NCBI GenBank assembly: GCA_030278955.1
Contig: JAOANR010000003.1
Location: 48,199,175 to 48,263,174, forward strand
DNA length: 64,000 nucleotides
DNA from: Hygrophila difformis
Taxonomy: Eukaryota; Streptophyta; Magnoliopsida; Lamiales; Acanthaceae
Direction: 5' to 3'
Part shown: one piece after another, positions 28,299 to 54,276 of the stretch
Numbering within the stretch: position 1 is the first letter of the stretch
How the letters are laid out: each line of letters begins with the position of its first letter
Made by a program: the position numbers and the translations under genes
The notes under the pieces: generated by a model
Seen by the model: the letters and a program-made list of their open reading frames with translations, nothing else
What the model was told of the DNA's origin: nothing
Databases searched by the model: none

Positions 28299-28485
28299 TG
28301 ATGACAGTCTTTTATAACTGTCATTTGCGTCCAATTTAGTGTCTTAATAATGATCTTTTGTTCTTAATTTCATAAGTTTTCAATGAATAATCATGGAAGA
28401 TATGAAAAGATGGAAGAAGAACCAAGATTGTGAAGAAATTGGAAATTACATAAAATGGCTTGAAATTCTAAGTTTTTATTATAAG

Positions 28486-28830
28486 TCTCGCACGCTATGT
28501 TTTTATTTGATCTGAATCACGCTTTGTCATTCAGCAGGAAGTTAAGTTGAAAGGCTGCGGGAGATGGAAATGAACGTAGCGAGGAAAGAAAATGAATGAT
28601 GTGAGGACTTAAATACGAAATCAGAAAAAGATCCAAGGAAAAATGTTCAGAAGCTGAAGTCTACACGATGATCATTTGACATCGCGTGGGAAGAAAGTTT
28701 GTGCAAGACAAGAAGTCTTTAGTGTTATGGCGAGAAGAAAATTGTTTGAAGAAGATCTTAGAATCTCGCCTTGATAAGAAAGATAATTCCATTTTGACTC
28801 TCGCTTTGAAGGAACTGGGACAAAGCGATA
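28486..28830 (+). promoter_or_regulatory. Cluster of CGC-TTTG/CAAAGCG motifs in U3 of G
   Basis: Repeated short motifs and partial palindromes: tctcgcacgctatg, tcacgctttg (28517-28526), gtagcgagg, cacgatg...catcgcgtg (28663-28688), tctcgccttg and ctcgctttg...caaagcg (28800-28827). They sit 60-400 bp upstream of the TATA box, where enhancer elements would be expected. The 3' LTR has the same cluster. Confidence 0.5.
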
Positions 28831-28890
28831 GGAGAGCTATTCTGATGCGAGTGGTTATTATCCAATGCGGAAAGCAGTTACAACGCCCAT

Positions 28891-28900
28891 CTATAAATAA
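28891..28900 (+). promoter_or_regulatory. TATA box of the G LTR
   Basis: ctataaataa, followed by gacccttggg. The 3' LTR has the same box at 51495-51504. It implies a U3 of about 620 bp and a very long R-U5. Confidence 0.7.
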
Positions 28901-31600
28901 GACCCTTGGGAGATCAGCTCAAACAGCCGGAGATTGAAGAGAATAGCTCGTTTTACTCTCCAGTTCACTTTTAGAATTCAGTAGGTAGGTTAGCTAAGGT
29001 TTATTTTCGCTGTAATTTAATTCATGTTCTTCAGATTTGTAATTCGATTTCACAGTAGATTTTCTTCGGATTATTTTAGTAGATTAGTTTGAGAGTACTC
29101 TGGAAGAAGGATTGCTATCGGAATGCTTTTGTTCATCCATTATGACGATCGCCATTTAGTTTCCGACTTCTTCGTTCGAATTCGCATTATTCTGATTGCA
29201 ATCAGATTTCCAGGTGTATTCGTTTTTAATTTCTTTGTTATTCATGATATATGAAGGAAGATCAGTTGTCAAATCTTGTATTCTTATCTTTCTGGTTACA
29301 ATTTTTAAAGGCTTTATCAGAATTCAATGTTCTTTAATTCTGTTTTAGAGAAGTATAAACCTCGAACACAATATTCGCTTTTTGAAATCTGCGTAACATC
29401 GATAATTTGATTTTCGAGATCATGCTAGTATCATATTTTCAATTCGTAATTTGTCTGGCATAATTACTCAAGAAGTTTGGATATTGTAACCGAGTTGGGT
29501 ATGAAACTGATAGAACCATTAATTCATTTGATTTTCTGTTAATAGTATACTTTGATTACAATTTTTGAAGCAATCTGCAGAAATTAATGTTCAGAACTAA
29601 AAGAAGTTCCTAAAGACCCATGCAGTGTTAACCATCGCGTGATAATCTTTAAGAACTAAACAACTATAAATTCTCAAATCTGGAGGTAAAAGGTTCTGTT
29701 TTCATTGTTTACTGAATAAATGTTCCTGAAAGTAGTTATGGTTAATCTCAGGATTTGATCATTTACTTCATATAAGGATTAAACCTCGCTTAGTCTTAAA
29801 AGATGACGCGAGGAAATATCCAAACAACTTTGTTCCAAAACAAGTTATTCCAATGCTCTCGCGATGTCATTTTGACAGAGCGAGAGAGTCAACTTGAAAT
29901 AGCGACAGAATTGGTTCCCATTCTCTGGGATATCAACTACTCAATTCTTATATATATATAACCCCTATTCTATAAGTAGGAGTTGAATAATCTCGCTGCA
30001 TTCTTTCAGACTATACTGCGAGGGATTCAGTTCTTTGTATAAACTAAATTTGAGGAACATTCTTTGAACAATAGCTCCCTCCACGCTGTACAGATATAGC
30101 GCGCGGAAAATTAGAATGTTCATAGTTTGAAACCCAAGATAGTTACTCCGAGCTATTTTGGACACTTATTTTGCTGGATTATTCCTTAAATCTGTTTCAT
30201 AGGAAAGTAATTTCCTAATTCTGTCTAGTTTCCAATTTATATTTTGGAAACACTCTAGCATTTTACTTAAGAGGATTCAGAACTCTTATCGTTTCTTTAT
30301 ACATATATTACTACTTATATCTAGAATATTTTGGGATATTTCTCATACTATGTGAAGTACTCTTACTTCTTAATACAAATTTACATTTCATATAAGAAAT
30401 TCATAGGATTACCATCACTGATGCATTGAGGAAGAGGATGATATAAGTTTTCTCAGAACATTTTCCACTTAGGATGATTGAGAACAAACCTGTTCTTAAG
30501 TTGGGCACCTAGTACCTGTCGTTTAAAAGGGAAAGATGTTTCAAAAGCCATCTTTTGTCTTATAAATTAATGAGAATTAGGAAGAGTTAGCTTCCAGGGT
30601 TCATAGCTTTTTGATGATCTAATCATATGCTATGAGTAGGAGGCTAAGTAACTTACTAAATTTCATTAATCCTGAGTTAAGTCATGGGTATTCGGAATTG
30701 TTTACAGAGAATGCCCACGCTAATACATCAATATGAATCTGAATAGTTCAGATAAGTCAAGGATTTTGATTTGCAATTTTATCTTGATATACTTACAGAA
30801 CTATTATTTCTTATAAATACTTGAATGAATTACTCTAAGAAGTTAAGGCTTGTGTAACCAATGGATGATAGATTTAAATATTTGCTTTCTTATTTCTTGT
30901 AGAGGACATCCATTATAGGGACATGAGGCTCTTATCTCATCTCAGAGTAATAAAGAGAATAACTTCAAGTTCAGATGAATGTATGATGATTTAGATGTGA
31001 CCTTGGGTTGCCAATGGCTTAATCTGAATCTGAAAGAAACAGATTAAGTGATAATTCTGAAAGCTTTTACCAAGAAATGAGTCTGACCGATCATTTCTTT
31101 GTAATTGTATCTCAAGATTTCAGTGCTTAATAATGTCATGACACTAGATCATTAGTACTTGTCTTGGGAAAATGATCAAAGACATGAAGATCTGATTAAC
31201 TTGCATAAAGGATTTTTCTATCCTCAATGAGTCTCCAATTTATCTTTTAACCCATGAATTCATAAACATATTCATATCATTTAACATCATTTTAATTGCT
31301 TTCTTTATTTTCTTTACAGTTTTATGCATTTACTATTCAGCATTTATTTCTTAGATATCATCATTACACCATCCATAAACCAAGAGTAGAAACAAGTTCT
31401 AGAACCAATAATTCTATTAGAGCACTTCTATCGTGTAACTCTCCAGAGAACGATCCCGACAATTATAAATAAATACTGCAAGCTTGATACCGTGCGCTTT
31501 CGGTAGGCAGACCAGGCATTACTCTTGAACAGTCCTATGAGATTTGTAGTGTAAAGATAGTCAAGAGATATGTGGCAGGTAGGTCACACACAAAGCTTCA

Positions 31601-31617
31601 TGGCGCTGTTGCCGGGG
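31601..31617 (+). other. Primer-binding site of G (tRNA-Asp type)
   Basis: TGGCGCTGTTGCCGGGG abuts the LTR end. The complement of the plant tRNA-Asp 3' end is TGGCGCCGTTGCCGGGG, so there is one mismatch. tRNA-Asp priming is typical of Athila. Confidence 0.9.
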
Positions 31618-31744
31618 AGGGTGTAGCGTTATGAATTTTAGAACTATAGATACTCTTTGGTTTATTTGTAATTATTTACCTTTTACCATATTGAATAAAT
31701 TCATTAATTCTTTCATTTTGTTCACAGAGAAATTTCAACAGTTT

Positions 31745-34700
31745 ATGAGCGAAAGAACAACTCGATCTTCAAGGCAACCTTTGCTTCCTTTTAATTGTGA
31801 ACTTGAAAGAACAGCGAAGCTGATCAGAGCGAACGCTAGAAGGAGACAAAGAGATCTTGCAGAAGGGAATCTTTCAACGATAACTGGAATGGCTAATAAT
31901 GGACAAAATGACGGACCTGGAAACTTACCAAATGGACAGCCAGAAAATCAGCAAAACATACCACTTCGAGGACATTTCCAAGCACCACAAAGGGCTTCCG
32001 CGCCACAATTTCTTCATCAACATTACTTTCCACCTAATTTTGCTAATCCTGCTCCAAATCCTCAAGAAGAACAGTATCAACCATGGCAACCAAATGTTGA
32101 TCAGTACTTGGCTGGAACAGATGAAGAGGTTGATATACCACCTGCTATATTAAACTTGGCATCTTCCAGAGCTTTTTATGGGTTGAGTGCTGAAGATCCA
32201 CACTTGCATCTTAAAAAGTTTGTTGAATTGAGTAAGACAGTGAAGAAGGGTAGAACTTCAAGAGAAAGCATTCAACTAGCAATGTTTCCATTCTCCCTGG
32301 ATGGTTCTGCGAAGGAATGGTATGACTCATTGAATGCTCAACAGAAGGCTACTTGGCCAGAACTAGTCAGAAACTACTTGCTCAAGTATTTTCCAGAAAG
32401 TAAAGTAGATGAATGGGTAGATAAGATTTCCAGCTTTAAGATGAGAAAAGGAAAATCTCTGAAGGATGCTCGAGACAGATTCTTTGATATGCTTAAAAGA
32501 TATCCACAGCATGGTATCTCAGAAAGAAGACTTTTAAAGATCTTTTTCACAGGACTTACTCATACTTGGCAGATGATGATCAATGCCACTGGATGGGAAC
32601 AATTACTCCAGATGCCACTTGATAGAGCTTGGTCAACAATAGACACCATGACAGCCAGCAGAGCAGTCCTCCAAGATGATGACCCTCCATCACCCACAAG
32701 AAAGAGTCTTGTTATCCATACAGACAAGAATGAAGAAAAATTTGCGGCACTCACTAAACAGATTGCTGAGTTACAGCTAGCTCAGCAAACAAGTCAACAA
32801 ATTCAGCATCAACAACAACAACCTATGATGATTCTTCAACCTACTCCCATGGAACCAATTTATCAATGTGGAATCTGTTCTGGACCACATCATAATGATC
32901 AATGTCCGCAGCTTCAGGAAGCACCTAAACAAGATGAAAGCTGTAATTACACTGGTTTCCAGAACAAGCATCCAAACTTGAGCTATGGTAACACTCAAAA
33001 TGCACAGAATGCACATCTCCTAGATCCTCCTCAACAGAACTAGCAGCAGTTTCGTCCTCAGCAACAATTCTATCCTCAGCAGCAAATGTATCCTCAGAGA
33101 CCTCCTCAACAAATGAATCAGCAGAATAGGCCATATGGACTGTTTGCACCAATGCCTGCAAATTTTCCACAGCAACAGGTGCCACCAGTCCCTTATCCTG
33201 TTGTTCAAGATAATACTTATTCTTTAAAAGTGGAGAATGCTCTGAAGGAGTTTATTATTAAGCAGACAGAGATGAATAACCAACTGCAGGCTTCAATCAA
33301 AAATGTTGAAAATTCAGTAACAGAGATGGCCAAGTTATTACAGCAAAGAGAAAAATGAAAACTACCAAGTTCTTCTGAAACAAATCCACAATGTAAGGCA
33401 GTTACATTGAGGGGATGGAAAGAAGTTGTTGATCGCGAATTTGAAAAGAAACGAGATAGGTTGCTACAGCAGAAAAAGTTCAAAGATGTCCAGACAATGG
33501 AAGAAGATGATCAGCTTGAAGAAAGGCGGATACTTGAGGATAAGGGTTTGGAAAAGAATGTTTCAGGACACTCCTTTCCAAAGGAAAAAGAGGGAGGCAA
33601 TGATATCCCTAACTCTACACGTAACAAAAAGGATCCACTGGATGAACACATGCCCAGGATACCATATCCTGGGAGACTCAAAAATGATCTTCAAGAAATT
33701 AAATTTAAGAAATTTCTTGAAAAGATTAAGGCCATTGAAATCTCAATCCCTTTGGTTGAATTAATTGCAGAAATGCCCACTTACGCTAAGTTTCTGAAAG
33801 AATTGATTTCAGAGAAACGAAGTGCGGGAGAGCAGCAAATGGTGGTCCTAAATCAGAATTGCATCTTGGTTCTTCAACAACGGATTCCTCCAAAGCTTGA
33901 AGATCCAAGGAGTTTTACTTTGCCCCTGATTATCAACTGTAAAGAAGCTGGACGAGGGCTTTGTGACTTAGGAAGCAGCATCAATGTAATGCCACTTGCT
34001 ATGGCCAGAAGATTGGACTTGGGGAAGATGAGACCAGTGAATATGACTCTCTTCTTTGCTGATCAGTCGAGCACCAGACCAGAAGGAATCATTGAAGACG
34101 TTCTAGTAAAGACAGAAGGCCTTTGTTTTCCAGCTGACTTTGTCATTCTTGATATTGATGAAAATGTCAGAATCCCTGTCATACTAGGAAGACCTTTCCT
34201 GGTTACTGCAGGAGCTATGATTGATGCAAAGAATGGCATAGTTAAACCTCACGTTGATGATCAGGAAGTTACCTTCGACATGATGAAGATGGCAACATAT
34301 CCTTTTAATGCTTTTGAAACCAATGTAGCGGGGAAGGGATTAGATTCTAGTACTATGGAGGGGGAAAATCTTTTAGATTACTATAATCTCTTTACCACTG
34401 ATGTAATTGAGAACAATCTCACCCCACTCACAAATGTTGAAGATGCTACTTTTGCTTACTTGTGCGCGGTTAGATTCTCTGATCCTGAGACTGGTGATAT
34501 CAAGGACGGATTAGAAAGTGAGGATATGACATCTTTAGAACAATCTGAGGATGACATTGATAAAACAAATCCTTCTACAGAAGGATCTGATTTAAAGATG
34601 GAAGTGCAAACTCGAAGCAAATTAATTCCATCTATAGAAAATCCACCAAAGCTTGAACTTAAAGTACTACCAGAACATCTTAAGTATGCCTTCTTGGCAG

Positions 34701-34768: not shown

Positions 34769-37221
34769 TGTAACACCCCGATTTTTGGTCACCCAGGTCG
34801 GGGTGTCACCGCCACACCTCCCTAGCAAGACACGGTTTCTCCGAGCTTAATAAAGAGATGCAAGGCTATGGTTTTTCAGAATTTAAAATATTCAAACAAC
34901 CCATTCATATATAATTTAAAAATAATACATCGAAGTTGCAGCGGAAAATAATAATTACATATGTATAATGCAGCGGAATTTAAATATAGCCAACACGGCC
35001 AGAATACGGGTTAAACAGACCCGTTCATGCAAGATCTAGTCTAATACAATAATTCAAAATAATATATCTTCCCAAAATTCCCATGTATGCATATGACGAT
35101 GCATAATTCTCAACTCTGAAAGAAAAAGGAAAAATATGGTTTGGTCAGCAAAAACTTGCTGAGTAAGTTAACACGTACATGTTTATGAGGTTTCAAAGCC
35201 TTTAATTAAATTTAAAAGAAACATGTGCATAATGTAATCTATTCATTTAATAATAATTTAATCGCATAATATGGATTCCATACGATCTTAAATATAGCTC
35301 GCAAAGTAATTACATAAATTGCCATAAATATAAAGGCACAATTTAATACAGATTTAATTTGGAATTCTCGCAAACTTCTCGTTTCATATCTTTTAGAGAT
35401 CACCATCGCTAGGGCTCTTATGTCCACCAGCCTTACGCCTGGGCTCTTATGTCCACAAGTATCATGGTCGATCTTTTAATTAGAGTTAATCCGTCCGCTA
35501 GCCATACGATCAGTGTTTCGCTAGGGCTCTTACGTCAACCTAGACATACACTTGGGCTCTTGTGTACCAAGCCGCAGAGAACATTGACAGTATCTAGCTT
35601 AGTCATAACCCGCAATATTTTAACCTTCTCGTTTCGGGTATCTTATTTCAAAGAATTTCTACTCGTTTCAACCTTAAAGGCTAACTTCACCGTTTCAACA
35701 AGATTTCAAGATTTAACTCCCAGTAAACCCCTGTTTACTCTGAAATTCATTAAAAATCGAATTTAATTCCAAAAATTCTGAACATCGAGATGAACAACTT
35801 TCGTGTTTTAACTTTTTCAATCCGAGATACCGAAACAGGTCAAATACATCAATTTTCGCCCTATCATAAATCTGTCCGAATTTCGTGTACAGCAGTTCAA
35901 GATTATCAAGATCTACCATAGCAAATCAACTCCAAACTTAATGAAATTTTACAGAGACCTTCTTAAGAAATTTATCTACAACTTTCATGTTTGGCTAAAG
36001 ATCTAAATCGGTTTAGATCTAATGTCAAAAACGTCATCAAAATCGGACCTAAGTTCTGTCAAGAAATTCAAGATCCAAGTTTCAGCAGTTCGGTTTCGGG
36101 TGGATTTCAAATATCAAAACGTCTCTAAAAATTCTGAAAATTTTACAGTAGATGGACCTAAGCCTTAGGAACGTTTTTTGTGTTTTAAGTTTTTCCGTTT
36201 GAAGTCGTTTTAAGGTTCGGAAAAATTCGACAAAGCTGTTGCGCCGTTAAAAATCATACGTTGACAGATTTTTGAAAGATTCGGTTAAGCTTTTAGTTTT
36301 CGTGTTTTAATTTCTCCCAAAACCATGTAAGTATCAACTTACAGATTTGTAGATATCCGGGATCGTCTATTTCGAAGGCGTGGCTTCCAGTCCACCGTTT
36401 ATCCTCTCTGTTCGTCGGGTTCTACGTTCTAGATCCGATTCGGGGCGTAGAAAGAAAAAGAAGAAGGTTAGGATTCGTTTTCGAATCGTATATGGAACAA
36501 GGATCGGATTGAAGCATACCACGACGTTAGGGATCTTCAAAATTTCGTCCACGCAGTCCTTGCCTTGGTTTCGTGCCTCCGACGACTCCGGAATTAGGGT
36601 TTTCGACGTATACAGAGTTGTAGGGTTTTGGAAAAGTGTTCGGAGCTTTCAAGAGGGCTTATTTATAGGTAAATAAGACCTAGGGGCGTCCAAGGTCTGC
36701 CTCTAAGGGTCTTGAGCCGATTGGTATTCAACCGAAGTCGGAAAATCCGGATTCGGGCGAGTAAATCTCGCACCAAACAAATCTGTGGGGTGGCGCGGCC
36801 GTGGCGTGCCCATTGCCCATTGACCGCAGCGGCCACCGCGCGGCTGCCGCCTGGACTTCAGTCCGGGCGGGTCGTGCGATCCGTCGTGCTTTTCCTCCTC
36901 TCTTTCGGACTTCTATCCCTTTATGCTCCAGGATTCCGATTTCCGGGGTACCTTCGGGTTGCTACTTTCTCTCTAAATTTTTACTCGGGTCTAATTGCAT
37001 GTTCGGATTCGAATTCTCGAGTTCATTGGTGTCGGGTTTCGGTGTACAATTTATTTACCTTTAATAATTCTTTTTATTTAATTAAATTCCTTTAGTCTCA
37101 TTTCTCATTTCCTTATCTTTATTTATTTATTTGCTGAATTTATTTATTTATTGTATTTATTTTATTATTGTTTTATTTATTTAGTTATTGGTTTTATGTT
37201 GCAAAATTCTCGGGTATTACA
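34769..37221 (-). mobile_element. Element H: solo Tekay-type LTR inside G's polyprotein gene (2,453 bp)
   Basis: It runs TGTAACACCCCG to CGGGTATTACA with the 5-bp duplication TGTGT (34764-34768 and 37222-37226). No internal sequence is present, so it is the product of LTR-LTR recombination. Parts resemble the D LTR, but the region around 35400-35600 differs (repeated gggctcttatgt patches). A TATA-type box lies at 36659-36668. Confidence 0.95.
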
Positions 37222-40001
37222 TGTGTACTCTTAAAAATCATATTCAGGCAATTGCTTGGACAATAGCAGATATTAAAGGCATTAGTCCTCACATTTGTAT
37301 GCATAGGATCATGATGGAATATGAGTATAAACCATCCAGACAACCACAGAGGAGGCTAAATCCACTAATGCAGGAAGTTTTCAAGAAGGAGGTAATCAAA
37401 CTACTTGATGCAGGTATAATCTATCCTATTTCTGATAGAAAATGGGTAAGTCCAACACAAGTTGTACCTAAAAAGGGTGGGATTTGTATTGTGACTAATG
37501 AACATGGCGATGAAGTAGCAACAAGACCGGTAACTGGTTGGAGAGTTTGCATTGATTATGGAAAATTAAATACTGCCACAAGAAAAGATCATTTTCCTTT
37601 ACCTTTTATTGATCAAATGTTAGAAAGATTGTCAGGTAAACCATTTTACAGCTTCTTAGATGGTTATTCTGGTTATAATCAAATAGTAATTGCTAGCGAA
37701 GATCATGAGAAAACAACTTTTACTTGCCCATATGGAACATTTGCTTACAGAAGAATGCCCTTTGGATTATGCAATGCTCCTGCCACTTTTCAAAGATGCA
37801 TGATGAGTATTTTTTCTGATTTTATTGAAAAATGCATTGAAGTGTTTATGGATGATTTCATTGTCTATGGAATTGACTTTGAGGATTGTTTACAAAATTT
37901 ATCAAAAATTTTGCAGAGATGTGAAGACACTAACTTGGTTCTTAACTGGGAAAAGTGTCATTTCATGGTTCAAGAAGGAATTGTCCTAGGACACAAAGTA
38001 TCTAGAGCAGGAATAGAAGTAGACAAAGCTAAGGTTTCTGTTATAGCAAATTTACCACCCCCTAAAACAATCAAGGCAGTAAGGAGTTTTCTTGGTCATG
38101 TTGGTTTCTACAGAAGGTTTATAAAGGACTTTTCTAAAATAGCAAGACCTTTATGTAATCTTCTTCATAAGGATGTGGTATTTAGCTTTGATGAAGATTG
38201 TTTGACTGCTTTTAAGACTTTGAAAGAAAAACTTATCACTGCACCTATAGTTCAGTCTCCTGATTGGAATCTACCTTTTGAACTCATGTGTGATGGAAGT
38301 GATAATGCAGTAGGAGCAGTTTTAGGGCAACATAAAGAAGGCAAACATCATGTCATTTATTATGCCAGCCATACTCTTAATGATGCCCAGATAAACTACA
38401 CCACTACAGATTAGGAAATGTATGCTGTAGTTTTTGCCTTTGACAAGTTCAGACAGTATCTTATTGGAGCTCAGACTATAGTCTACACAGATCATTCTGC
38501 ATTAAGATATCTCTTCCCACAGCAAGAAGCCAAACCTAGGCTGATAAGATGGGTTTTGCTTTTACAAGAGTTTGACATTATTATTAAAGACAGAAAAGGA
38601 AAAGACAATGGAGTAGCAGATCATCTTTCGAGATTGGAAGAGAAAACAGAAAATGAGGAAGTTGTAAATGATAAATTTCCAGATAAACAGTTATATGCCT
38701 TGCAGTTGCATCAATTTGATTGTCCTTGCTTTTCAGATTTTGCTAATTATCTGGCCTGCAAGATTGTTCCAAAGTTTAAAGACTCTCATCAGAAGTCAAG
38801 ATTTTTCAGAGAGATTCAGAAATACTACTGGGATGACCCCTTTTTATTTAAATTTTGCTCTGATCAGGTTATTAGACGCTGTGTTCATGAGAAAGAAGGT
38901 TTTCAAATTGTTAGGAAGTGTCATGAGAATCCTTTAGGAGGCCATCATGGCCCTGCTAGAACTGCTAGAAAGGTTCTACATTGTGGTTTCTTCTGGCCAA
39001 CTATCTTTTTGGATTGCCAGAAACTTTTAAAGATGTGTGACAGATGCCAAAGATTGGGAAACATTTCAATGAGAGAAGAAATGCCTCAAAAAGGAATTTT
39101 AGAAGTTGAGATATTTGATGTTTGGGGAATTGATTTTATGGGACCTTTTCCCCCTTCATATGGTAATCACTACATTCTAGTAGCTGTTGATTATGTCTCA
39201 AAATGGGTAGAAGCAGTGGCTTTACCCAATAGTGAAGCTAAACAAGTTACTAAATTTCTGCAAAAGAATATTTTTACCAGGTTTGGAGCCCCTCGTGCCG
39301 TTATATCTGATGGAGGATCTCACTTTGTAAATAAACTCTTTGAGAAGTTGCTTAAACAATACGGTGTTCATCATAAGGTTGGATCACCATATCATCCTTA
39401 GACAAGTGGACAAGTGGAGGTATTTAATAAGGAAATTAAGCATATTTTACAAGCTTCTGTGAATATTACAAGAAAAGACTGGTCAAACAAACTGGATGAT
39501 GCTTTATGGGCATAAAGAACTGCTTTCAAGACTCCCATAAGGATGTTTCCTTACAGATTAGTTTTTGGAAAAGCTTGTCATCTTCCATTTGAGCTAGAAC
39601 ACAGAGCATATTGGGCCATTAAGATGCTTAATATGGATGTTCAGTTAGGACAAGAAAAGAGGAAATTTGTTCTGTCTAAGTTGGAAGAGATGAGACTGGA
39701 AGCATATGAAAGCAGCAAGATTTACAAAGATCGAACCAAGAAAATTCATGATGCAAAGATAAAACATAAGGAATTTTATGTTGGTCAGATGGTATTGTTG
39801 TATAACTCTCGTTTGAAATTGTTTCCAGGAAAGCTGAGATCAAGGTGGACAGGACCATTTCCTATTGTAGCTGTTCATGATAATGGAGCTGTCACAATTA
39901 TGCTTAATGAAGGAGAAAAGACAGTAAATGGACACAGGCTTAAAGAATATATTGGTCAACAAGATTTAAATATTCAAACGGATTACTTGGATAATCCATA
40001 G
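37222..40001 (+). pseudogene. pol of Athila element G: RT, RNase H, integrase, three in-frame stops
   Basis: The same polyprotein frame as the gag-protease part. RT: VVPKKGGICIV, WRVCIDYGKLN, FYSFLDGYSGYNQI, FGLCNAPATFQRCM and the active-site block VFMDDFIVYG (ATG-GAT-GAT at 37848-37856). RNase H: LMCDGSDNAVGAVLG, then TDHSALRYL. Integrase: zinc region [12 protein letters not shown]...CDRCQRLG and catalytic D (39132, [11 protein letters not shown]), D (39309, ISDGGSHF) and E (39432, FNKEIKHI). Stops: TAG 38412-38414, TAG 39399-39401, TAA 39513-39515. The end is [12 protein letters not shown] to TAG 39999-40001. There are no frameshifts, so decay is recent or slight. Confidence 0.93.
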
Positions 40002-41920: not shown

Positions 41921-41937
41921 ATGGCAGGTGATAATCC
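41921..41937 (+). CDS. Candidate shared first exon (MAGDN) for the downstream F-box exons
   Basis: ATGGCAGGTGATAATCC is followed by the donor gtaagc at 41938, so it gives five codons plus two bases (phase 2). The F-box exons at 43098 and 44013 each begin, after good pyrimidine-rich acceptors, with one base that completes such a codon. The exon before F-box 2 (acceptor near 42187) is not in phase. This is inference from splice signals only. Confidence 0.4.
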
Positions 41938-42211: not shown

Positions 42212-42922
42212 ATGACTGATCTTCCACTGGACATCATTGGAGAGATTTTGTCACGAGTAGGGCAGAGTAGCTTTGAAGACTTGCTCCACTGTAAAGGAAC
42301 ATGTTCAATATTCAGAATTGCTTCAAATTATCCTATTGTCTTCCGGAGATTCAATGTAGAGGATCCAGTTTTTAAGAGTATCTCTAACAAATCCTTTGGT
42401 AAGGCTGAGTTTCTACACTCCTGCAGACGGGCTAATAATCACATTTTAAATCTTCATAAAGCTATGGAACTGTTCACGCAAGGTGAAGAGAACAAAGCAT
42501 TTCAAATTCTGGAAGAAGGAATTAATGATAATCATAAGTTCTCTCGGTATATAAAAGCTTTATGTTGTTTAAGCAGAGTTTCCAAAAAGGAAATAGATAG
42601 AGTGCTTTGTTTAATGAGTTCTATATTAAATGATAGGTTAACTAGCTATAATTTTAGATATAGCCTTTTGACTCTACTCTCAGAATAGGAATATGTGCCA
42701 AATCCTTTCCTAGGACAGAATAAGAGGGAATTCTGCAACTTTGATAATCATGACTGGGAAATCATCCATGAGCCGCCATATTTCAATTATGGAGCGGGTC
42801 AGATTATCTGCCTTTGTTGTGATACAACTAGGGCAGTAGCTGACTTCAGGATAATGGCAAAGGAGGTCTTTTATAACCATAGTATTATTGGAGATTTCTT
42901 GGATGAAGAAGGAGGAGAATAA
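42212..42922 (+). pseudogene. F-box protein 2 in element G, internal stop
   Basis: Paralogue of F-box 1. The F-box is at residues 1-45 (MTDLPLDIIGEILSRVG, CSIFRIASNYPIVFRR). The helical region follows (NNHILNLHKAMELF, AFQILEEGINDNH, RYIKALCCLS). TAG at 42686-42688 interrupts just before PNPFLGQNKREFC; the same frame then reads through PPYFNYGAGQIICLCC to an acidic end (DEEGGE) at 42922. A splice acceptor (gagagcag) lies 24 bp before the ATG. Conserved Cys spacing in the tail (FC...CLCC) suggests a small metal-binding unit. Confidence 0.8.
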
Positions 42923-43097: not shown

Positions 43098-43851
43098 AAA
43101 TGTCGGAATTCCCCAACTCTTGGGAACTCAAATATTTGATATACCTACTGAGTTGTTGGGAGACATTCTGTCGAGATTGGGAAAGGATAGCATAAAGAAA
43201 CTCTTTAGAGCATCAGAGATATCCAAACAATTTCTTTCAGCAAGCAGATCATCACTAGCTCTAAAGAGAGTTAATCTGGAAACTTGTGCTATGTGGAGAG
43301 AAAGTGTTTATCCCAGTAACCAGGTTAAATTTATCAAAGAATGTCAGGATGCGGGAAACTATATGTTTAATCTTGAACCTGAACTGATAGCTTTTGTTGA
43401 TAATAATGATGAGAAAAAAGCCTATGAACTCTTAAAGCCTGGTTTAGATGATAAACACCAACCATCTGCTTTCATAAGATGCCTCCTACTGCTCTCCAAG
43501 CAAGACCAACAATTTGATGAAGAAGGGATCCAACTGATCAAATCTGTAACCCAGGATTCTTTTGAGTTAGCCTTCCTTAAGATTAGTGTTTTGCACTGGC
43601 TTCTCTATTGTGAAAAATTCGCAAATGCATTCCTTGCTCAAGAGGAAAGGAGCTTCTGTAAGAATCACTCTCTCATCGAGCGTCAGCAACTACCTTTGAA
43701 TGAAAGGATGGAGTGCATACCTTGCGAATTAGTTGACATAGTCAAGCAATTCAGAAGAGCAACTGGTGAGGAAGGTATATTATTCGAATGGGAGCAGTGG
43801 GGCAATGAAGAAGAAGAGCAAAATGAAGATGAGTTGTTAGATTTAGAATAG
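43098..43851 (+). CDS. F-box protein 3 in element G, open terminal exon
   Basis: The reading frame is open from the acceptor ttttcaaacag (exon start 43098) to TAG 43849-43851, about 250 codons, with no ATG before the F-box in the exon. F-box: IFDIPTELLGDILSRLG, KQFLSASRSSLALKR. Helical region: GNYMFNLEPELIAF, AYELLKPGLDDKHQPSAF. Tail: FANAFLAQEERSFC and CIPCELV, ending in an acidic run (NEEEEQNEDELLDLE). Upstream in-frame codons run into intron-like T-rich sequence. It probably needs an upstream exon such as 41921-41937. The lack of stops contrasts with copies 1 and 2. Confidence 0.7.
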
Positions 43852-44012: not shown

Positions 44013-44760
44013 CTGTGAAATTGGAAGCTCCTCAAAGCAACCAAGGACTTCAATAAAGAAATCTGGATCACGGGGAACTCAGATCACAGATCTTCCTTAT
44101 GAGATTCTTGGGAATATTTTGTCGAGATTGGCATTTGATCACCTTGAGACTGTTTTCAATTGTAAATTAGTCTGCAAGGGATTAGAAGAAGCCACCCACC
44201 ATCCTTTAGTCTTGAAGAGGGCTATTCTTGAAGAATTCTCTGCATGGGGATGGGGGACTTTCGAAGAAACACAGAGAGATTTTATTGAAAGCTGTAGAAA
44301 TGCAGGAAATTGGATGTACCAATTACCAGAGGCACTGCGTTTGTTTGTTCGAGTTAAGAATGAACAAGCAGCATTTGATCTCTTAAAACCTGCAATTACT
44401 GATAATCACCCCCCATCCATTTACATAAAAGCTCTTATGCTTTTGAGTAAGGATGAAGTTGAAGAGCAAGAGAAAGGAATTTGGCTTTTTGCTACTCTGT
44501 GTAAGAATAGACGAAGGCTCAAAGATCTCCAGCTCCAAGTCAGAGGGTGGCTATCAAATCAGAATGAATTCCTTTCACCTTTTCAAGGACAACCTAAGAA
44601 GAGATTTTGCAATTATAGGAACTATTATGATAATAATCACAGTCTTTTAAGAAACTTTTATGGTGTTTCCTCAATTTACTGCATGAGGTGTTTAGTCTCT
44701 GAGCATTGTAATTTGTTTCTCAGATTTGGTGTTGATGGGGAGATTCCTCCTTATCTTTGA
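44013..44760 (+). CDS. F-box protein 4 in element G, open terminal exon
   Basis: Open from the acceptor atcctgctcag (exon start 44013) to TGA 44758-44760, about 248 codons. F-box: ITDLPYEILGNILSRLAF, CKLVCKGLEEATHHPLVLKR. The helical region is the closest to the family consensus (GNWMYQLPEALRLF, AAFDLLKPAITDNHPPSIY, IKALMLLSKDEVEEQEKG). Tail: SPFQGQPKKRFC and IYCMRCLVSEHC. Like copy 3 it has no initiating ATG upstream of the F-box in its own exon, and it is in phase with the mini-exon at 41921-41937. A 3' UTR with polyadenylation-like AATAAG and AATGAA stretches follows. Confidence 0.7.
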
Positions 44761-44922: not shown

Positions 44923-45062
44923 CACATTTAGAGCAAATCTCTAAATGTGAGTATGGTGATATCATGCAAAAATGATGAGTATAAGAAAGGAAGAATTGAT
45001 ATTATGCTTTCTTTTAACACCTGCACATTTAGAGTAAAGCTCTAAATGTGAGTATGGTGACA
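44923..45062 (+). repeat. Two hairpins repeating the 3' LTR junction sequence of G
   Basis: Two perfect 11-bp stems CACATTTAGAG/CTCTAAATGTG (44923-44949, loop CAAAT; 45024-45050, loop TAAAG). Each is followed by agtatggtga. The sequence at the real 3' LTR start, tctaaatgtgaggatggTGA (50889-50906), is almost the same as the right arm plus its tail. The two units are about 100 bp apart and lie between the F-box cluster and the next ORF region. Confidence 0.8.
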
Positions 45063-45107
45063 CCGATTTATTCAGTTTATCTTATCTCTTTCTAAAGGAT
45101 TCATAAG

Positions 45108-46654
45108 ATGACCTATGAAGAACTTCAAGCTCGAGGCATAGAATCAGACAAGAAAGAAAAATCATTTTTGAGAATGAAGAAAACAGCAAAAATTGTGAAG
45201 GATATTCAGAACGGTTGTGGATGGTTAGGAATGGAAATTTCACCTCCAGAATTTTATGTCAATCCACTGATGATTCAACATATACCTGATAAGGAAAAGG
45301 AATCATTGATGATTGATCTGGAAGAAATGGAGTCAAGAATGTTACACAATAGTCAATCCAAAGGATCAAACAGGATTGGAGTTGGACTATTTTGACCCTC
45401 AACCAATGCCCAAGTATGTGAAGCGACTCACTAAGTATAGCTGTAAACTTCAAGAAATTCGGAATGCTCGAGTTTATGATGCTCAGCAGGCACTCCCCGC
45501 ATACATGCCTCCAACATTCTTGAACAAGAAGGGGCCTATTGAACAAAATTTCTTGACAAATTTGGCTCTAGACAGGATTATTGATGTTCGGATCAATTTA
45601 AGACATGACCTCGAGCCTTATTTTAAGAAAGCTAAACAAGGCAAGATGGTATGGAAAGATGTTCTTAGAACCATTCAGGAAGCTAGGAATAGCGGGATCA
45701 GGCATATGAATGAGTGGGCTAAGGGAGAAAATCTGAGGACAAGAATTCTTAAACCAGGGTTGGAAAGAAAACCTAATGAAGAATTTCCATTAGAAAAGTT
45801 TGCTGATTTAATGCCTGAACAACAAGCATGGGTTAAAGATGCAGAAGAGAGAGAAGCTGAGAGATCAGGGAAAAACAGGAAGCAGAGATCAGATGCAAAG
45901 CAGACACCACAGAACATAGTCAGGAATATATTCAGAGAATTTGTTATTCATGAAGGACTGGAACCTATAAAGAATTTCAGGAAAGTTTCAGCCCCAACAA
46001 TAACACCAGCAGATGCAGATCCTCATTACAGACAGACCTAACAACATCATGAAGAGATTACCCCCAACTCTCCAGCAAGAAGTTCATGGATATGTTCAGG
46101 AGAGAAGGAAAGAATTCATTGAGAAATATATCAGATATGATAGTATATGCAGAGAAAACGCATACAAGGAGCATAGAGCTTATACTGATCAAACACAAGG
46201 AATGATTCAGCAGGTAATCATTGATGATTGGGATGCATGGAATGAGAAGTATCTGAACAGAAAGGGAATGAATGTGATGCTAAAAGGTATGGGTAAGAAT
46301 TTTTATGTCAAGAAAAATGATTCAGATGAAGATAGTACAGATGAGGAACAAAGATTTGAGAAAATGCGAGTAGTGGATGAAGTTACAACTATTGTAGGAG
46401 AGGGGAATGAAGAAAATGATGAACCCCATCCGATCTTGCAAGAGAGTATTAAACACTATTATGCAAGCAGGCAAAAGGAAAAGCATGAATTCGAAGAATT
46501 TATGAAAACCCAAGATAAGAAAGGTAAAAAGAAAATATCCACCAGGAAGAGAAAGTCACATAATCTTAGTTCAAGCCCTTCAGAAGAAGCACCTTCAGCT
46601 AAGAAAAGGACTGGGAGCAAGGTGGAGAAATTCAAAGAAGAAGAGGAAGAATGA
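45108..46654 (+). pseudogene. Unrecognised charged ORF region of G, part 1 (two frameshifts)
   Basis: Three consecutive open frames that read as one broken protein: 45108-45395 (MTYEELQARGIESDKKEK), 45313-46041 (ELDYFDPQPMPKYVKRL, then KKAKQGKMVWKDVLR) and 46013-46654 (RPNNIMKRLPPTLQQEVHG, ending in a K/E/S-rich stretch). Frame changes fall near 45350 and 46030. It is mostly helical and highly charged, with a basic nuclear-signal-like stretch (KKGKKKISTRKRK). There is no signal peptide or membrane span, so no envelope-like feature is visible. Athila elements often carry an extra ORF here. I do not recognise the domain. Confidence 0.55.
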
Positions 46655-48306
46655 AGATGAGCTAGCAATCAAAGAGGTTTTGGACTTGAAAGCAGGAATT
46701 CCAGAAACAAGGAATTTGATGGATGAGGATAAAGAGACACTACAACCATCTCAAGGAAAGAAGGAAGTTGTTACTTACAGAAGGAGAGGAAAGTTACTTT
46801 CTGAGCAGAAGGAGACTAATCCTGGGAAATCTAAGCAGCAAGAATCCTCTTTTGAGAATGTAGAACAATCATAAACCGTTCCTGAGAAAGAAAAGCAACA
46901 AGAAAAAGAACCTGAGAAACCTGTTAAGAAGTTCAGAATAAAGATGAAGGCTAGGAAGCCAAAGTATGTGGTGCAAGATACCAGCTCTGATGAAGAGAAA
47001 GTTGAACCAACTTTAGGAGTAATACCTTATACAGAAGGGTTAGAACTCACTCCTTATGGTAATTTGGAAGTGGGAGATATAGATCTAGAAGGCTGGAGAG
47101 CATGTAGTGACGAACATCAACCAGATGTACAAGGATCAACTCAACCAACCACTGAACTTCAACAGACTCAGATTATTGCAAGAAATGATTTGGAAAGACA
47201 GGATGAAGATCAACAAGCTCAGGTCAACAAGGTTCTTATCCAAAGTCAGATCGATTTACAAGGATCTTCAGAAAAAGAAGTTGAACAAGAAATCTTCAAA
47301 GATCCAGCCACAGAAGTTGATAATTCTTTTAAAGTGGCAGATCAGTAGGAACAAGATTCACCACCAAAACAAGCTTCAGATGAGCAAGAATTTTTGGATC
47401 AAGTGGAAAAATTAGTGGTGAACACATTGCAAGATCAATCAATTGAAGATTTGCAAGATTTTGAAGATCTGAACTTGCATGGAACTACTGTGGGAAACAT
47501 GACCTTATCTTTGGAAGGTTTGATCAAAAAGTTCAGAAAACTGGCCAGGGAAGGAGGGAATGCACGTACTTCAGTAGAACAAGCAAATGAATATGCAGCT
47601 AAGCTTGAGTTAGAATTGGAGAAAGTTAAACAGCAAATGAATTCTGAGCAAACACTGGAGCCATCTCCATTAGCACTCCAAGCTTATAGAGAAGAAGTGC
47701 AGAGGATGTGCAAATGAAATTCAAGAGAATCAACAGAGAGAGTGTTTGGTGGAAGACACTGTTAATCAACATCTCGGAGCACAGACAAATTCTGAGGATC
47801 AAATGAATCAATGGGTTCTTCCATCTCAAATTAGGGATGAGGTAACTCATAGAGCGGTTGCAAGGATGAATGATCCTGAGTGGGTTGCAGAACAGAAGAA
47901 GAAAGCAGAAGAACATTTTGGAATCCAAGGATTTGATGATTCAGAACCTCCTGCTGTCATTCTTTTGTTAAAGGAACCGGTACAGGAAGATCCCACAGAG
48001 ATCCTGAACCAGCATAGTTTGGAGATCACTGAAAAGATAGACACCAGCACATCATTGATGCATGAGTCAGACATAGGTAATCTACAACATAATGATGCTG
48101 AGGAAGTTCAAGAAGAGAATCCAGAACCTGTCCATGAAGAAAACTCAGAAAAAGTTCAGGAAGAAAATACAGAACCTGCTCAAGAAGGAGGTCAATTAGA
48201 AGAAGAAGGAAATGAGAATGTTGGGAATGAGCAGGAAGAAGCACAAGAGTCTGAGAGGAGTGAATCAGATACTTCTGAAGGATCTTCACCGGAAAAGAAA
48301 TTCTAG
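46655..48306 (+). pseudogene. Unrecognised acidic coiled-coil ORF region of G, part 2
   Basis: Continuation in two frames: 46655-47717, with TAG stops at 46872-46874 and 47346-47348, then 47746-48306. It is rich in Q, E, K and S with long helical stretches, for example a coiled coil at 47520-47640 (AKLELELEKVKQQM). An imperfect repeat EVQEENPEPVHEENSEKV lies at 48100-48180. The end is very acidic (SESDTSEGSSPEKK). The composition is that of a flexible linker between part 1 and the domain in part 3. No function can be assigned. Confidence 0.5.
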
Positions 48307-49835
48307 AGCTGTTGCCTTTGAGTTATTGGGGAAAGAATAGTCCAAAGGTGAGGTTATCAATCCCTGATAGCATTGAAAAGAAGACTGAATTCACAAAAGA
48401 AGAAATCAAGATTAAGTTTAATGGAAGAAAAGAAGCATTAGAGAATTACCTGGGAATGTCCAAGATCATTGTCCCAGACAAGGGATTTCATCCCAAGTGG
48501 TTGGATCATAAGTGTATCAATTATTGGAGAAGAATCAATGAATGGGACATTTTCATGAGACATAACAACAAATGTGGTTATGTGGAATTGACCAGGGAGT
48601 TCTATGCTAATTTTGATGTGGAGGCTGAAACAACATGGATTAGAGGAAAAACAGTGCAAGTCACTGTGGAGACTCTAAATGATTTGATACAGGCACCTCT
48701 GTTAGAACAGCCGGAAGTCAAGTCTGAAGTTCTTTTGAGAAAGAAAACTCAAGGAAATAAGCTTACTAATGCTAGAAAAATGGCATTAGGATTCTGTTCA
48801 ACACACAGAGGAACTGAGCAGAATAAGATTCAATTGAAGAATTTGAAGCCTGAGTATCTGCCAACTCTTGATTTCTACTACTCAAAGCTCAGACCCACTA
48901 CTAATTTTCAAGGACCTTCTGCTGGAACTTTTGAGGGATTTGCTTTATTATGGTCAGGGAGAAAGTGTAGTGTTGCACACCATGTTCTCAATGTCATTAA
49001 ATCAAGAGTTGGAGAAGATGCAGCACTAGCCTATCCAAATCTTATCAGAAGGCTTTCTGAAAAACAAGGAGTGTCAATCACACCATTCTTAGCAGAGATC
49101 ATAAAGATAGACCCTCCCATTCCATTACCAGTAGATACCTTGAGGGGAGAATTGGTTTACCAAATGCCGGATCTGGAGGAACAAACTTCTGAAGGATCAG
49201 GATCAAAAGTACCATCTCCTAAGACAAAATGGGTAAAGCTTCCTTTAAAATCAAAATCATCTCAATCAAGAGCTGCAGTGAAAAGGACAAAGATTTCAGC
49301 AGCATCTCCTGCATTGAATCCTATTCCAGAAGATAAGGAATTTGAGAATACTTCTGTACCATCTCAACCTTTGAGACAACCAATGAGGAACACAGTGTCT
49401 GTGGATGAATCTCAGAATATGAGTACTTCAATTCAAAGTTTTGCATAGTCCATGGAGATGTTAGTGAAAACTACGTCAGAAGACAAGCACATTCAAAGAG
49501 AGATAGAGCAGAAGAGGATTGAACTTCAGCATACCAGGATTCAAACTGAAGAGAAACTCAGGAAAGAGGAGATGGACAGACAAGAGAAGATAAGGAAGGA
49601 AGAGTGGGATAGGCAAGAAAGAATGAGAAGAGAAGAGATGGAAAGATTTGAAAGATTGAGGAAAGAAGAGCTTGAGGAGAGAAGACAGGGACGAGAAAGG
49701 GATATGGAGCTGAGGAGACAGGAGCAGCAAAATAGTACAAGGTTGGTAGACATTCTTGCCAACCTAGTTTCAGACCTGAAGAAGTCTCCATCAATACCAC
49801 CAAAAGACCCAGGCAGTGATGCAGGCCCATCCTGA
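48307..49835 (+). pseudogene. Plant-transposon-type domain protein plus coiled-coil tail, part 3
   Basis: Frame 48312-49448 has WGKNSPKVRLSIPDS, INEWDIFMRHNN, VELTREFYANFDVEAET and WIRGKTVQVTVETLNDLI. This spacing of a REFYAN block and an RGKxV block is what I know from the plant domain PF20167 (putative plant transposon protein), common in ORFs of Athila/Tat relatives. TAG at 49446-49448 separates a 128-codon tail (49452-49835) that is one long E/R/K coiled coil (KLRKEEMDRQEKIRKEEWD). It may be the C-terminus of a large protein spanning 45108-49835 or a separate ORF. The function of the domain family is unknown. Confidence 0.6.
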
Positions 49836-50887
49836 GATCACAGGGGAGTTTTCTCTAACCTTCTCTTTCCTTTGTTATTGCTTTCTTTCTTTCATTGTTT
49901 CTTTTCTGTTTCCATTTATTTCCCAAATCATGATTGTGATCTAGAGTATATTTAATGTGAAGTTATATTGTGAGATTGAATTTCAAGTTAAGATTAATCT
50001 AATCAGAAACTCAAGTGGGGCAAAAAACTGATGAAGGAATAGAAGACTAGTCTAAAGTGGCTGACCACATAAACATTCACTTTATAGATTTTGACTGCAT
50101 GCATGAGCCGCTCTTGAAAACTATTTTAAGCTGTGAACTTTGAGACTGATTGATGTCATTACTAGATAAACAGTTTGAAGATTTTATGATTGTATTAACT
50201 TTAGTGATTTGTATACCATAAACAACAACTGCACTAAGTTAGAAGGATTGATCTAATCTAGTCTCTCTTAGAAGATGAGTGTGCATATTGAGTGAAGTAT
50301 GAGTCCAAAGCTAAAGAGCAAGGGACATTTCAGAAACAAACGTGGTAAAATAATGTGGATATAAGTAGCTGGCACAGCTGCCCCTCTGACTTATGAGTTG
50401 AAGAACTCTAAAAGAGCAAAGTTAAGGGCAGGGGAGTTGAAGTTTCATCTGCAATGTCAGGTCATGCGAATCCTCCTAATAATGTGAAACCGAGCTATTG
50501 AAACCCACGGAAAGCCACCCCTTGATAAAAAAAAATTAAAAAAAAGAGTGTGTATTAGCTTATTCTTTTTAGCTAAGGATTCAGAAGCGCGAGATATGCA
50601 CATAAGTTGGATAGGATTGAGCGTGAGAAGAGAAATTTGACTAACTAAAGGGCAGAACAATAGTTCACATAAATGCAAATCACTTTTGTTAATGCTTTCA
50701 TGAAGTCTGGTAAACTCAAAGTCAGGTATGAAGCATCAATCAGTTGAAAGAGTTGAGCTTGAGATAGTTGGAAAAGGGAAGGTATTGATCCAGGAAAGTC
50801 TTACATGAACATCTAAATCTTGGAAGCCACAAATTGGACTTGTTCTTTGAAACTTTATAAGTTTCCTACCACTTGAGGACAATGGTT
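49836..50887 (+). other. Noncoding 3' region of element G
   Basis: About 1 kb without a coding gene, following a TGA at 49833. It is T-rich at first, then of mixed composition. A stretch cgaaacccacggaaagccacc with an A-rich run lies near 50490-50550. A long 3' untranslated region before the LTR is usual for Athila. Confidence 0.6.
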
Positions 50888-50903
50888 CTAAATGTGAGGA
50901 TGG
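50888..50903 (+). other. Polypurine-tract region of G
   Basis: ctaaatgtgaggatgg directly precedes the 3' LTR start TGATGAC. The purine run tgaggatgg is short and imperfect. The internal hairpins at 44923-45062 carry close copies (tgagtatgg). Confidence 0.6.
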
Positions 50904-53900
50904 TGATGACAGTCATTTATAACTGTCATTTGCGTCCAATTTAGTGTCATAATAATGATCTTTTGTTCTTAATTTCATAAGTTTTCAATGAATAATCATG
51001 GAAGATATGAAAAGATGGAAGAAGAACCAAGATTGTGAAGAAATTGGAAATTACATAAAATGGCTTGAAATTCTAAGTTTTTATTATAAGTCTCGCACGC
51101 TATGTTTTTATTTGATCTGACTCACGCTTTGTCATTCAGCATGAAGTTAAGTTGAAAGGCTGCGGGAGATGGAAATGAACGTAGCGAGGAAAGAAAATGA
51201 ATGATGCAAGGACTTAAATACGAAATCAGAAAAAGATCTAAGGAAAAATGTTCAGAAGCTGAAGTCTACGTGATGATCATTTGACATCGCGTGGGAAGAA
51301 AGTTTGTGCAAGACAAGAAGTCTTCAGTGTTATGGCGAGAAGAAAATTGTTTGAAGAAGATCTTAGAATCTCGCCTTGATAAGAAAGATAATTCCATTTC
51401 AACTCTCGCTTTGAAGGAACTGGGACAAAGCGAGAGGAGAGTTATTCTGATGTAAGCGGTTATTATCCAAGGCGGAAAGCAGTTACAACGCCCATCTATA
51501 AATAAGACCCTTGGGAGATCAGCTCAAACAGCCGGAGATTGAAGAGAATAGCTCGTTTTACTCTCCAGTTCACTTTTAGAATTCAGTAGGTAGGTTAGCT
51601 AGGGTTTATTTTCTCTGCAATTTAATTCATGTTCTTCAGATTTGTAATTCGATTTCGCAGTAGATTTTTCTTCGGATTATTTTAGTAGATTAGTTTGAGA
51701 GTACTCTGGAAGAAGGATTGCTATCGGAATGCTTTTGTTCATCCATTATGACGATCGCCATCTTGTTTCCGACTTCTTCGTTCGAATTCGCATTATTCTG
51801 ATTGCAATCAGATTTCCAGGTGTATTCGTTTTTAATTTCTTTGTTATTCATGATATATGAAGGAAGATCAATTGTCAAATCTTGTATTCTTATCTTTCTG
51901 GTTACAATTTCGAAAGGCTTTATCAGAATTCAATGTTCTTCAATTCTGTTTTAGAGAAGTATAAACCTCGAACACAATATTCGCTTTTTGAAATCTGCAT
52001 AACATCGATAATTTGATTTTCGAGATCATGCTAGTATCATATTTTCAATTCGTAATTTGTCTGGCATAACTACTCAAGAAGTTTGGATATTGTAACCGAG
52101 TTAGGTATGAAACTGATAGAACCATTAATTCCTTTGATTTTCTGTTAATAGTATACTTTGATTACAATTTTTGAAGCAATCTGCAGAAATTAATGTTCAG
52201 AACTAAAAGAAGTTCCTAAAGACCCATGCTGTGTTAACCATCGCGTGATAATCTTTAAGAACTAAACAACTCTAAATTCTCAAATCTGGAGGTAAAAGGT
52301 TCTGTTTTCATTGTTTACTCAATAAATGTTCCAGAAAGTAGTTATGGTTGATCTCAGGATTTGATCATTTACTTCATATAAGGATTAAACCTCGCTTAGT
52401 CTTAAAAGATGATGCGGGGAAATATCCAAACAACTTTGTTCCAAAACAAGTTATTCCAATGCTCTCGCGATGTCATTTTGACAGCGCGAGAGAGTCAACT
52501 TGAAATAGCGACAGAATTGGTTCCCATTCTCTGGGATATCAACTACTCAATTCTTATATATATATAACCTCTATTCTATAAGTAGGAGTTGAATAATCTC
52601 GCCGCATTCTTTCAGACTATACTGCGAGGGATTCAGTTCTTTGTATAAACTAAATCTGAGGAACATTCTTTGAACAATAGCTCCCTCCACGCTGTACAGA
52701 TATAGCGCACGGAAAATTAGAATGTTCATAGTTTGAAACCCAAGATAGTTACTGCGAGCTATTTTGGACACTTATTTTGCAGGATTATTCCTTAAATATG
52801 TTTCATAGGAAAGTACTTTCCTAATTCTGTCTAGTTTCCAATTTATATTTTGGAAACACTCTAGCATTTTACTTAAGAGGATTCAGAACCCTCATCGTTT
52901 CTTTATACATATATTACTACTTATATCTAGAATATTTTGGGATATTACTCGGACTATGTGAAGTACTCTTACTTCTTAATACAAATTTACATTTCATATA
53001 AGAAATTCATAGGATTACCATCACTGATGCATTGAGGAAGAGGATGATATAAGTTTTCTCAGAACATTTTCCACTCAGGATGATTGAGAACAAACCTGTT
53101 CTTAAGTTAGGCACCTAGTACCTGTCGTTTAAAAGGGAAAGATGTTTCAAAAGCCATCTTTTGTCTTATAAATTAATGAGAATTAGGAAGAGTTAGCTTC
53201 AAGGGTTCATAGCTTTATGATGATCTAATCATATGCTATGAGTAGGAGGCTAAGCAACTTACTAAATTTCATTAATCCTGAGTTAAGTCGTGGGTATTCA
53301 AAATTGTTTACAGAGAATGCCCACGCTAATACATCAATATGAATCTGAATAGTTCAGATAAGTCAAGGATTTTGATTAGCAATTTTATCTTGATATACTT
53401 ACAGAACTATTATTTCTTATAAATACTTGAAGGAATTACTCTAAGAAGTTAAGGCTTGTGTAACAAATGGATGATAGATTTAAATATTTGCTTTCTTATT
53501 TCTTGTAGAGGACATCCATTATAGGGACATGAGGCTCTTATCTCATCTCAGAGTAATAAAGAGAATAACTTCAAGTTCAGATGAATGTATGATGATTTAG
53601 ATGTGACCATGGGTTGCCAATGGCTTAATCTGAATCTGAAAGAAATAGATTAAGTGATAATTCTGAAAGGTTTTACCAAGAAATGAGTCTAACCGATCAT
53701 TTCTTAGTAATTGTATCTCAAGATTTCAGTGCTTAATAATGTCATGACACTAGATCATTAGTGCTTGTCTTGGGAAAATGATCAAAGACATGAAGATCTT
53801 ATTAACTTGCATAAAGGATTTTTCTATCCTCAATGAGTCTCCACATTATTATTGATAATGAAAGTATGACTACTTAATCATAGTCTTATTTCGTTTAATT

Positions 53901-54276
53901 GTCGTTAGGTCCAATTTATCTTTTAACCCATGAATTCATAAACATATTCATATCATTTAACATTATTTTAATTGCTTTCTTTATTTTCTTTACAGTTTTA
54001 TGCATTTACTATTCAGCATTTATTTCTTAGATATCATCATTACACCATCCATAAACCAAGAGTAGAAACAATTTCTAGAACCAATAATTCTATTAGAACA
54101 CTTCTATTGTGTAACTCTCCAGAGAACGATCCCGACAATTATAAATAAATACTGCAAGCTTGATACCGTGCGCTTTCGGTAGGCAGACCAGGCATTACTC
54201 TTGAACAGTCCTATGAGATTTGTAGTGTAAAGATAGTCGAGAGATATGTAGCAGGTAGGTCACACACAAAGCTTCA
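50904..54276 (+). repeat. 3' LTR of Athila element G (3,373 bp)
   Basis: Collinear with 28299-31600. It carries about 70 bp absent from the 5' copy (53844-53913), flanked by TCCA on each side. The end, AAGCTTCA, is followed by TTAAC, the target duplication. It has the same U3 motif cluster and a TATA box at 51495-51504. Confidence 0.95.

Follow-up and report, generated by a model that had tools for sequence, protein, structure and literature searches.

Why does a retrotransposon of the aquatic plant Hygrophila difformis carry four F-box genes between its integrase and its 3' end? The question is raised by a stretch of 64,000 nucleotides, hereafter the window, from contig JAOANR010000003.1 (C9 in our numbering, positions 48199175 to 48263174, in a genome of 915 Mb in 246 contigs). 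Within it, an Athila-like Ty3/gypsy element at 28299-54276 contains, in this order, gag, pol, four tandem F-box units (u1-u4), an env-like region, a polypurine tract (PPT) and the 3' long terminal repeat (LTR). The array of F-box units is not private to this copy and recurs at the same position in hundreds of copies, and its units are under purifying selection that is visible between two subfamilies and hence in the replicating lineage. We put the probability that the array is element-borne and under selection, with units that matter to the element, at roughly 80%.

The F-box units and their recurrence in the genome

The four units and the small exon in front of the second lie on the forward strand of the window as follows:

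40749-41363, +: F-box unit 1 (u1), intronless, by Pfam; premature stop, homologous tail to about 41489
41921-41937, +: 17-nucleotide first exon (MAGDNP..), from ATG to the donor GTAAGC at 41938
42212-42688, +: F-box unit 2 (u2), by Pfam; premature stop, homologous tail to about 42922
43098-43851, +: F-box unit 3 (u3), exon 2 with a conserved 3' splice site, by Pfam and copy comparison
44013-44760, +: F-box unit 4 (u4), exon 2 with a conserved 3' splice site, by Pfam and copy comparison

The initial annotation, made from the sequence of the window alone, had listed four F-box open reading frames (ORFs) here. All four have Pfam F-box or F-box-like and TPR_27 matches at E < 0.02; two of the listed positions, 43098 (u3) and 44013 (u4), are not start codons and turned out to be the first bases past 3' splice sites. 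The alignment of the units from the F-box through a Sel1/TPR-like region to a Cys-containing tail was recovered, except that the TPR-like part corresponds to Pfam TPR_27 and that, for the window u1 and u2, the tails with the Cys motif common to u1-u4 lie beyond premature stops at 41361 and 42686, respectively. The first three units are each about 32% identical to u4.

To search the genome for u4, a 30-base word was used with up to 3 mismatches and with its reversed pattern as the control. The word had 685 matches (351 + 334) against 0 for the reversed control, which excludes chance; words from the integrase and the env-like region had 568 and 597 matches, again with 0 in the controls. Spacing was analyzed for the first 100 places of each word, and the u4 places used were 94 of the 100 listed together with 62 TPR_27 and 17 BLAST places on contigs C1-C5. 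Among the matches listed, a u4 from the list precedes at least 73 of 100 env-like places on the same strand, no more than 30 kb away, and the spacing is 4-6 kb in at least 60 of the 100. For the integrase, 52 of the 100 listed places were tested (C1-C5 within the listed range), and at least 39 of these are followed by a listed u4 no more than 30 kb away; the spacing, again among the matches listed, is 4.2-4.5 kb in at least 5 cases and 5.9-6.5 kb in at least 20, the spacings of subfamilies A and B described below. When 12 of the 27 env-like places left without a listed u4 were probed, seven were found to hold u4, two other F-box units and three none. In five of eight further pieces the env-like region runs continuously through the PPT into the 3' LTR, and in the other three it does not. 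Other copies with the block at the same place, as the initial annotation had envisaged for an element-borne family, are thus present, with the order integrase, F-box, env-like and LTR found elsewhere.

The genome search with TPR_27, in which 150 of 5039 candidates were scored, was saturated by element copies. Although 147 of the 150 are stop-free, this is not evidence of intactness because these are the best-scoring matches. No host F-box gene outside elements was identified among the 150 scored candidates, not each of which was checked for its location in an element.

The element has well-defined borders in the window. The matching LTR pair with TTAAC target duplications that had been noted there was confirmed: the two LTRs, 3302 bp (5') and 3373 bp (3') long with ends TG..CA, differ at 77 of 3302 aligned bases (2.3%, i.e., 97.7% identity), TTAAC stands on both outer sides, and a paralogue of the target sequence at about 16247-16330 of the same window has TTAAC only once and continues unbroken through the insertion point, an empty site. 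The flanks of the element are Ty3/gypsy sequence on the opposite strand, and nested elements fill the region, which would be the setting expected if a cluster of host F-box genes had come by chance to lie between the LTRs of a composite or nested insertion. Given the hundreds of dispersed copies, the recurring spacing from integrase through array and env-like region to LTR, and the empty site, we consider such an origin extremely unlikely.

Subfamilies, exon structure and selection

Two subfamilies carry the array. Subfamily A, to which the window copy belongs, has units 1-4, and its 29 other copies are 95-98% identical in u4. Subfamily B (L001-L008) is 78-82% identical over the matched region and has a fifth unit, X (uX), between u1 and u2. 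Upstream pieces contain u1 in eight of eight cases for A and in 11 of 12 for B; uX was found in 10 of the 12 B pieces, and L042 has neither. Five of the B upstream pieces belong to copies with the u2 tail, u3 and u4 at the downstream locus, and the F-box part of the B u2 was seen in one copy only (L040). The integrase adjoins u1 in six A pieces and one B piece. In the B copy L039/L040/L001/L041, the protease region passes directly to an F-box unit, apparently through a local loss of pol and u1, judging from the sequence; a subfamily B without pol was considered and rejected, as B copy L048 has the integrase next to u1.

A tree of 26 unit proteins resolved one group per unit, with four of the groups holding both subfamilies. 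Because orthologous units of the two subfamilies group together, the array predates the split of A and B. The uX group is sister to u3 with support of 99/99, and the u3 group itself has 93/91; the deep order is weak, and the tool warned of long branches. The idea that the units form element-borne clades is upheld in the form of one group per unit spanning two subfamilies, and the earlier proposal that a host F-box gene was captured and amplified is the one that best fits the copy number, the shared position and the groups across subfamilies. Possible further array types were seen in L066 and L067/L068: a uX/u3-like unit followed by a u4 tail, and u4 relatives at about 77% protein identity.

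The exon structure was compared among the copies. For uX, all 10 B pieces that contain the unit have a 17-base exon ATGGC[CT]GAGAACAA[CT]CC followed by a GTAAG donor, starting 362-387 bases ahead of exon 2, and this string with its donor, at no more than one mismatch, has 448 matches genome-wide against 0 in the reversed control. The exon before u2 is equal in length and phase in the window, A copy L057 and B copy L040, and the 5' leaders of uX and u2 are alike by eye. The acceptors of u3 and u4 are both in frame with the upstream exon at 41921-41937; their AG is conserved in all 35 copies that have u3 data, out of 37, and in 33 of 37 for u4. Since no first exon of their own was seen for u3 and u4 in the window by eye, we infer that both would be spliced alternatively from the shared exon upstream of u2. 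In u1, which has no intron, the first 17 bases occupy the first-exon position and exon-2-like sequence follows directly, resembling by eye the exon 2 start of u3 and uX. This unit looks like a precise intronless copy, as if spliced RNA had been copied back, with intron gain elsewhere as the alternative. A TATA-like CTATAAATAACC is located about 60 bp before the u1 ATG in the window and in six of six other A copies examined; in B copy L048 the TATA-like box of u1 lies farther upstream.

These features bear on whether the units were captured one by one from different host F-box genes, for which the low identity of the other units to u4 (about 32%) and the weakly resolved deep branches could be cited. 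The units have a common domain plan, however, and uX and u2 share the 17-nucleotide exon and the intron phase and are similar by eye in their leaders, while the acceptors of u3 and u4 are phase-compatible and uX and u3 are well-supported sisters. Separate capture therefore appears unlikely, and we continue with a single capture followed by amplification.

Selection was assessed from the ratio of nonsynonymous to synonymous substitution rates (dN/dS). Between A and B, the median was 0.12 for u3 and 0.15 for u4 (eight B copies each) and 0.10 for u1 (10 of the 11 B copies, those with finite dS), and u2 had a value of 0.15 (one copy); within B, uX had 0.10 (nine copies compared with L049, range 0.07-0.23). 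For comparison, one copy each gave 0.04 for gag, 0.07 for the protease-region ORF, 0.05-0.06 for the integrase and 0.085-0.12 for the env-like ORFs, whose rate is similar to that of the F-box array. In u1, u3 and u4, differences at third codon positions exceed those at first or second positions by a factor of 1.8-4.2; no such excess was found in the spacer after u4, where the third phase does not rank first in variability. The part of uX that is present is stop-free in 10 of 10 B pieces.

The initial annotation had also allowed that the F-box genes are simply cargo. Passive, unused units would account for the stops in many A copies and for the broken u1 and u2 of the window, but this explanation is disfavoured by the purifying selection on the units: their dN/dS of about 0.10-0.15, a third-position excess that the spacer lacks, the retained splice sites and the stop-free uX parts of subfamily B leave it very improbable.

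Several observations nevertheless weigh against a selected, element-borne array. The dS of u1, at 1.5-2.4, is near saturation. Stops are present in u3 of 8 and in u4 of 13 of the 29 A copies, and three near-identical A copies have a u4 dN/dS above 1, with very few differences; dead insertions would be expected to show such stops and ratios. In the window copy itself, u1, u2, pol and the env-like region are all disrupted. The F-box model is over the Pfam cut-off in window u1, u2 and u4 and in u1, uX, u3 and u4 of subfamily B, whereas window u3 (slightly) and the part seen of B u2 are under it. For TPR_27, with a cut-off of 27 bits, only window u1 and u4 and B u4 are over the threshold; weaker matches of 22.4-26.8 bits were obtained for window u2 and u3 and for B u1, uX and u3, and the Pfam scan gave none in the B u2 part. 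An AlphaFold model from the four-unit alignment reached a pLDDT (predicted local distance difference test score) of 43 and is unusable. A sequence search of the PDB returned chance-level matches only (E of 0.5 and above), and protein database searches with the four-unit alignment, unit 3 and a B unit 1 found nothing, plant proteins not being reached.

Architecture of the element

The remaining features of the window copy are the following:

28294-28298: target site duplication TTAAC, left, from the flank and empty-site comparison
28299-31600, +: 5' LTR (TG...CA), 97.7% identity with the 3' LTR
31601-31617, +: primer-binding-site (PBS)-like TGGCGCTGTTGCCGGGG, abutting the 5' LTR
31583-33043, +: gag ORF, stop to stop; Retrotrans_gag PF03732
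33359-34825, +: gag/protease-region ORF, stop to stop; no Pfam match, conserved in copy L040
34768-37221: LTR-like insertion from another element, within pol, from self-comparison
37185-39401, +: pol, with reverse transcriptase, RNase H, and integrase H2C2 and core, in two ORFs, by Pfam
39516-40001, +: C-terminal part of the integrase, by position; no Pfam match over the cut-off
44942-45060, +: two internal PPT-like copies (44942 and 45043), each behind a short hairpin
45313-49835, +: env-like region, several ORFs in the window copy; Transposase_32 PF20167 at 48279-49448
50889-50906, +: PPT motif, running into the 3' LTR
50904-54276, +: 3' LTR, from LTR comparison
54277-54281: target site duplication TTAAC, right, from the flank and empty-site comparison

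The extent of 26 kb given earlier for the element holds, except that about 2.4 kb of it is the LTR-like insertion inside pol. The PBS-like sequence may be of the tRNA-Asp type, which it resembles. The domain order of reverse transcriptase, RNase H and integrase, determined with Pfam, is that of Ty3/gypsy. An additional RNase H is a mark of the Tat lineage (PMC6317226, in part); no further RNase H match was found in the ORFs scanned, pol being interrupted there by the insertion. Downstream of the F-box units, the Transposase_32 match in the env-like ORF scored 46.9 bits against a cut-off of 45, and a kinship of PF20167 with Athila ORF1 is stated in PMC11728184 (in part).

The motif TAAATGTGAG[GT]ATGGTGA is present in three copies, at 50889 as the PPT at the 3' LTR and internally at 44942 and 45043, where the two copies sit between the F-box array and the env-like region, each after its hairpin. 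The internal copies may mark where a 3' end once lay or where priming takes place internally. At 45326 of the window, other copies whose match extends beyond this point have about 125 bp extra, and this comparison suggests that the window copy has suffered a deletion where its env-like region begins. Outside the element, positions 5834-14473 form a 4.3-kb direct duplication with 99% identity (5834-10159 and 10148-14473).

Possible role of the array and related systems

F-box proteins link targets to SKP1 within SCF (SKP1-cullin-F-box) ubiquitin ligases, and the array, by its domains, probably encodes adaptors of such ligases. The conserved F-box combined with a conserved TPR_27/Cys part that is specific to each unit suggests several adaptors with different targets. 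Plant proteins with an F-box and TPR_27 include the Arabidopsis At2g35280/At1g67623 class, which resembles the units in domain plan: both have an F-box followed by a TPR_27-like region, and the Arabidopsis proteins differ in being encoded by host genes.

In the scenario that we favour, an Athila-like lineage would have acquired a plant gene for an F-box/TPR_27 protein, its single intron preceded by a very small first exon. Before subfamilies A and B separated, the captured gene would have been duplicated into a tandem array between the integrase and the env-like region, now of four (A) or five (B) genes. The units would be translated as F-box proteins, bind host SKP1 and join SCF ubiquitin ligases; their TPR_27/Cys parts would pick targets whose degradation aids replication of the element. 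The targets would most likely be host factors that restrict the element through small-RNA or chromatin silencing, as with polerovirus P0, which binds SKP1 and leads to the loss of ARGONAUTE (PMC9572368, in part). P0 and the nanovirus protein Clink are parasite-encoded F-box proteins that use host SKP1 (same source, in part), and because of these viral precedents the array may be seen as helping the element against host restriction. The likeness is one of presumed mode of action, and the units differ in forming an array in a retrotransposon, whereas P0 and Clink are viral genes. By analogy with P0, an anti-silencing role in which the array degrades host silencing factors is put forward tentatively. 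The low dN/dS favours conserved targets over a fast arms race.

The F-box proteins could instead be directed at proteins of the element itself or at cell-cycle or movement functions of the host, and not at silencing. Clink binds SKP1 and also the retinoblastoma protein (PMC9572368, in part), and the array adjoins env-like ORFs that evolve at a similar rate; we regard such targets as a substantial possibility, somewhat short of an even chance. Returning to silencing factors as targets, the array might, although we hold this with considerable doubt, be a diversified kit of ubiquitin-ligase adaptors owned by the retrotransposon, which sends the host proteasome against silencing factors. The kit would then be expressed through internal promoters and through alternative splicing that starts at shared mini-exons.

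Additional ORFs in plant LTR retrotransposons were reportedly treated by Steinbauerova in 2011. In the elements covered by PMC7264820, PMC11963269 and PMC11728184 (each in part), extra sense ORFs between pol and the 3' LTR likewise occur in many copies; those ORFs are env-like, antisense, of unknown function or single captured domains, in contrast to the array reported here, which has several genes, bears introns and represents a single recognisable class of host protein. A large Gypsy element of Phalaenopsis with an N6-methyladenosine (m6A) demethylase ORF of the 2-oxoglutarate-dependent dioxygenase (2-ODD) type also kept a host-type protein through subfamily diversification, but it has a single ORF with another activity, demonstrated in vitro (PMC9289625, in part). 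With the Athila lineage (Athila4, Calypso, Cyclops and Diaspora) our element shares the LTRs, gag, the order reverse transcriptase, RNase H and integrase, a Transposase_32/env-like region before the 3' LTR and the 5-bp target duplication; F-box genes are not described there in the portions of that literature covered, while four or five stand between integrase and env-like region here. Our literature searches, with most subscription papers and supplements outside their scope, named no F-box genes in Athila, and the term F-box is absent from the main texts, as available in part, of PMC7264820, PMC11963269, PMC11728184 and PMC6317226, which review or survey extra ORFs of plant LTR elements, and of PMC9289625, which screened for extra domains. 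LTR retrotransposons with additional ORFs are thus already known, and an F-box array in one is new by the literature searched.

Little is known of how plant retrotransposons resist silencing, and the extra ORFs of plant LTR elements are mostly without known activity. For the protein class of the extra genes described here, the mode of action is well understood; several paralogues are under selection in an element with hundreds of copies, and SKP1 binding and target loss are testable gene by gene. If the anti-silencing reading, itself uncertain, were true, the array would be a transposon counterpart to the viral F-box silencing suppressors. In such genomes, F-box/TPR genes that are annotated as belonging to the host may be genes of elements.

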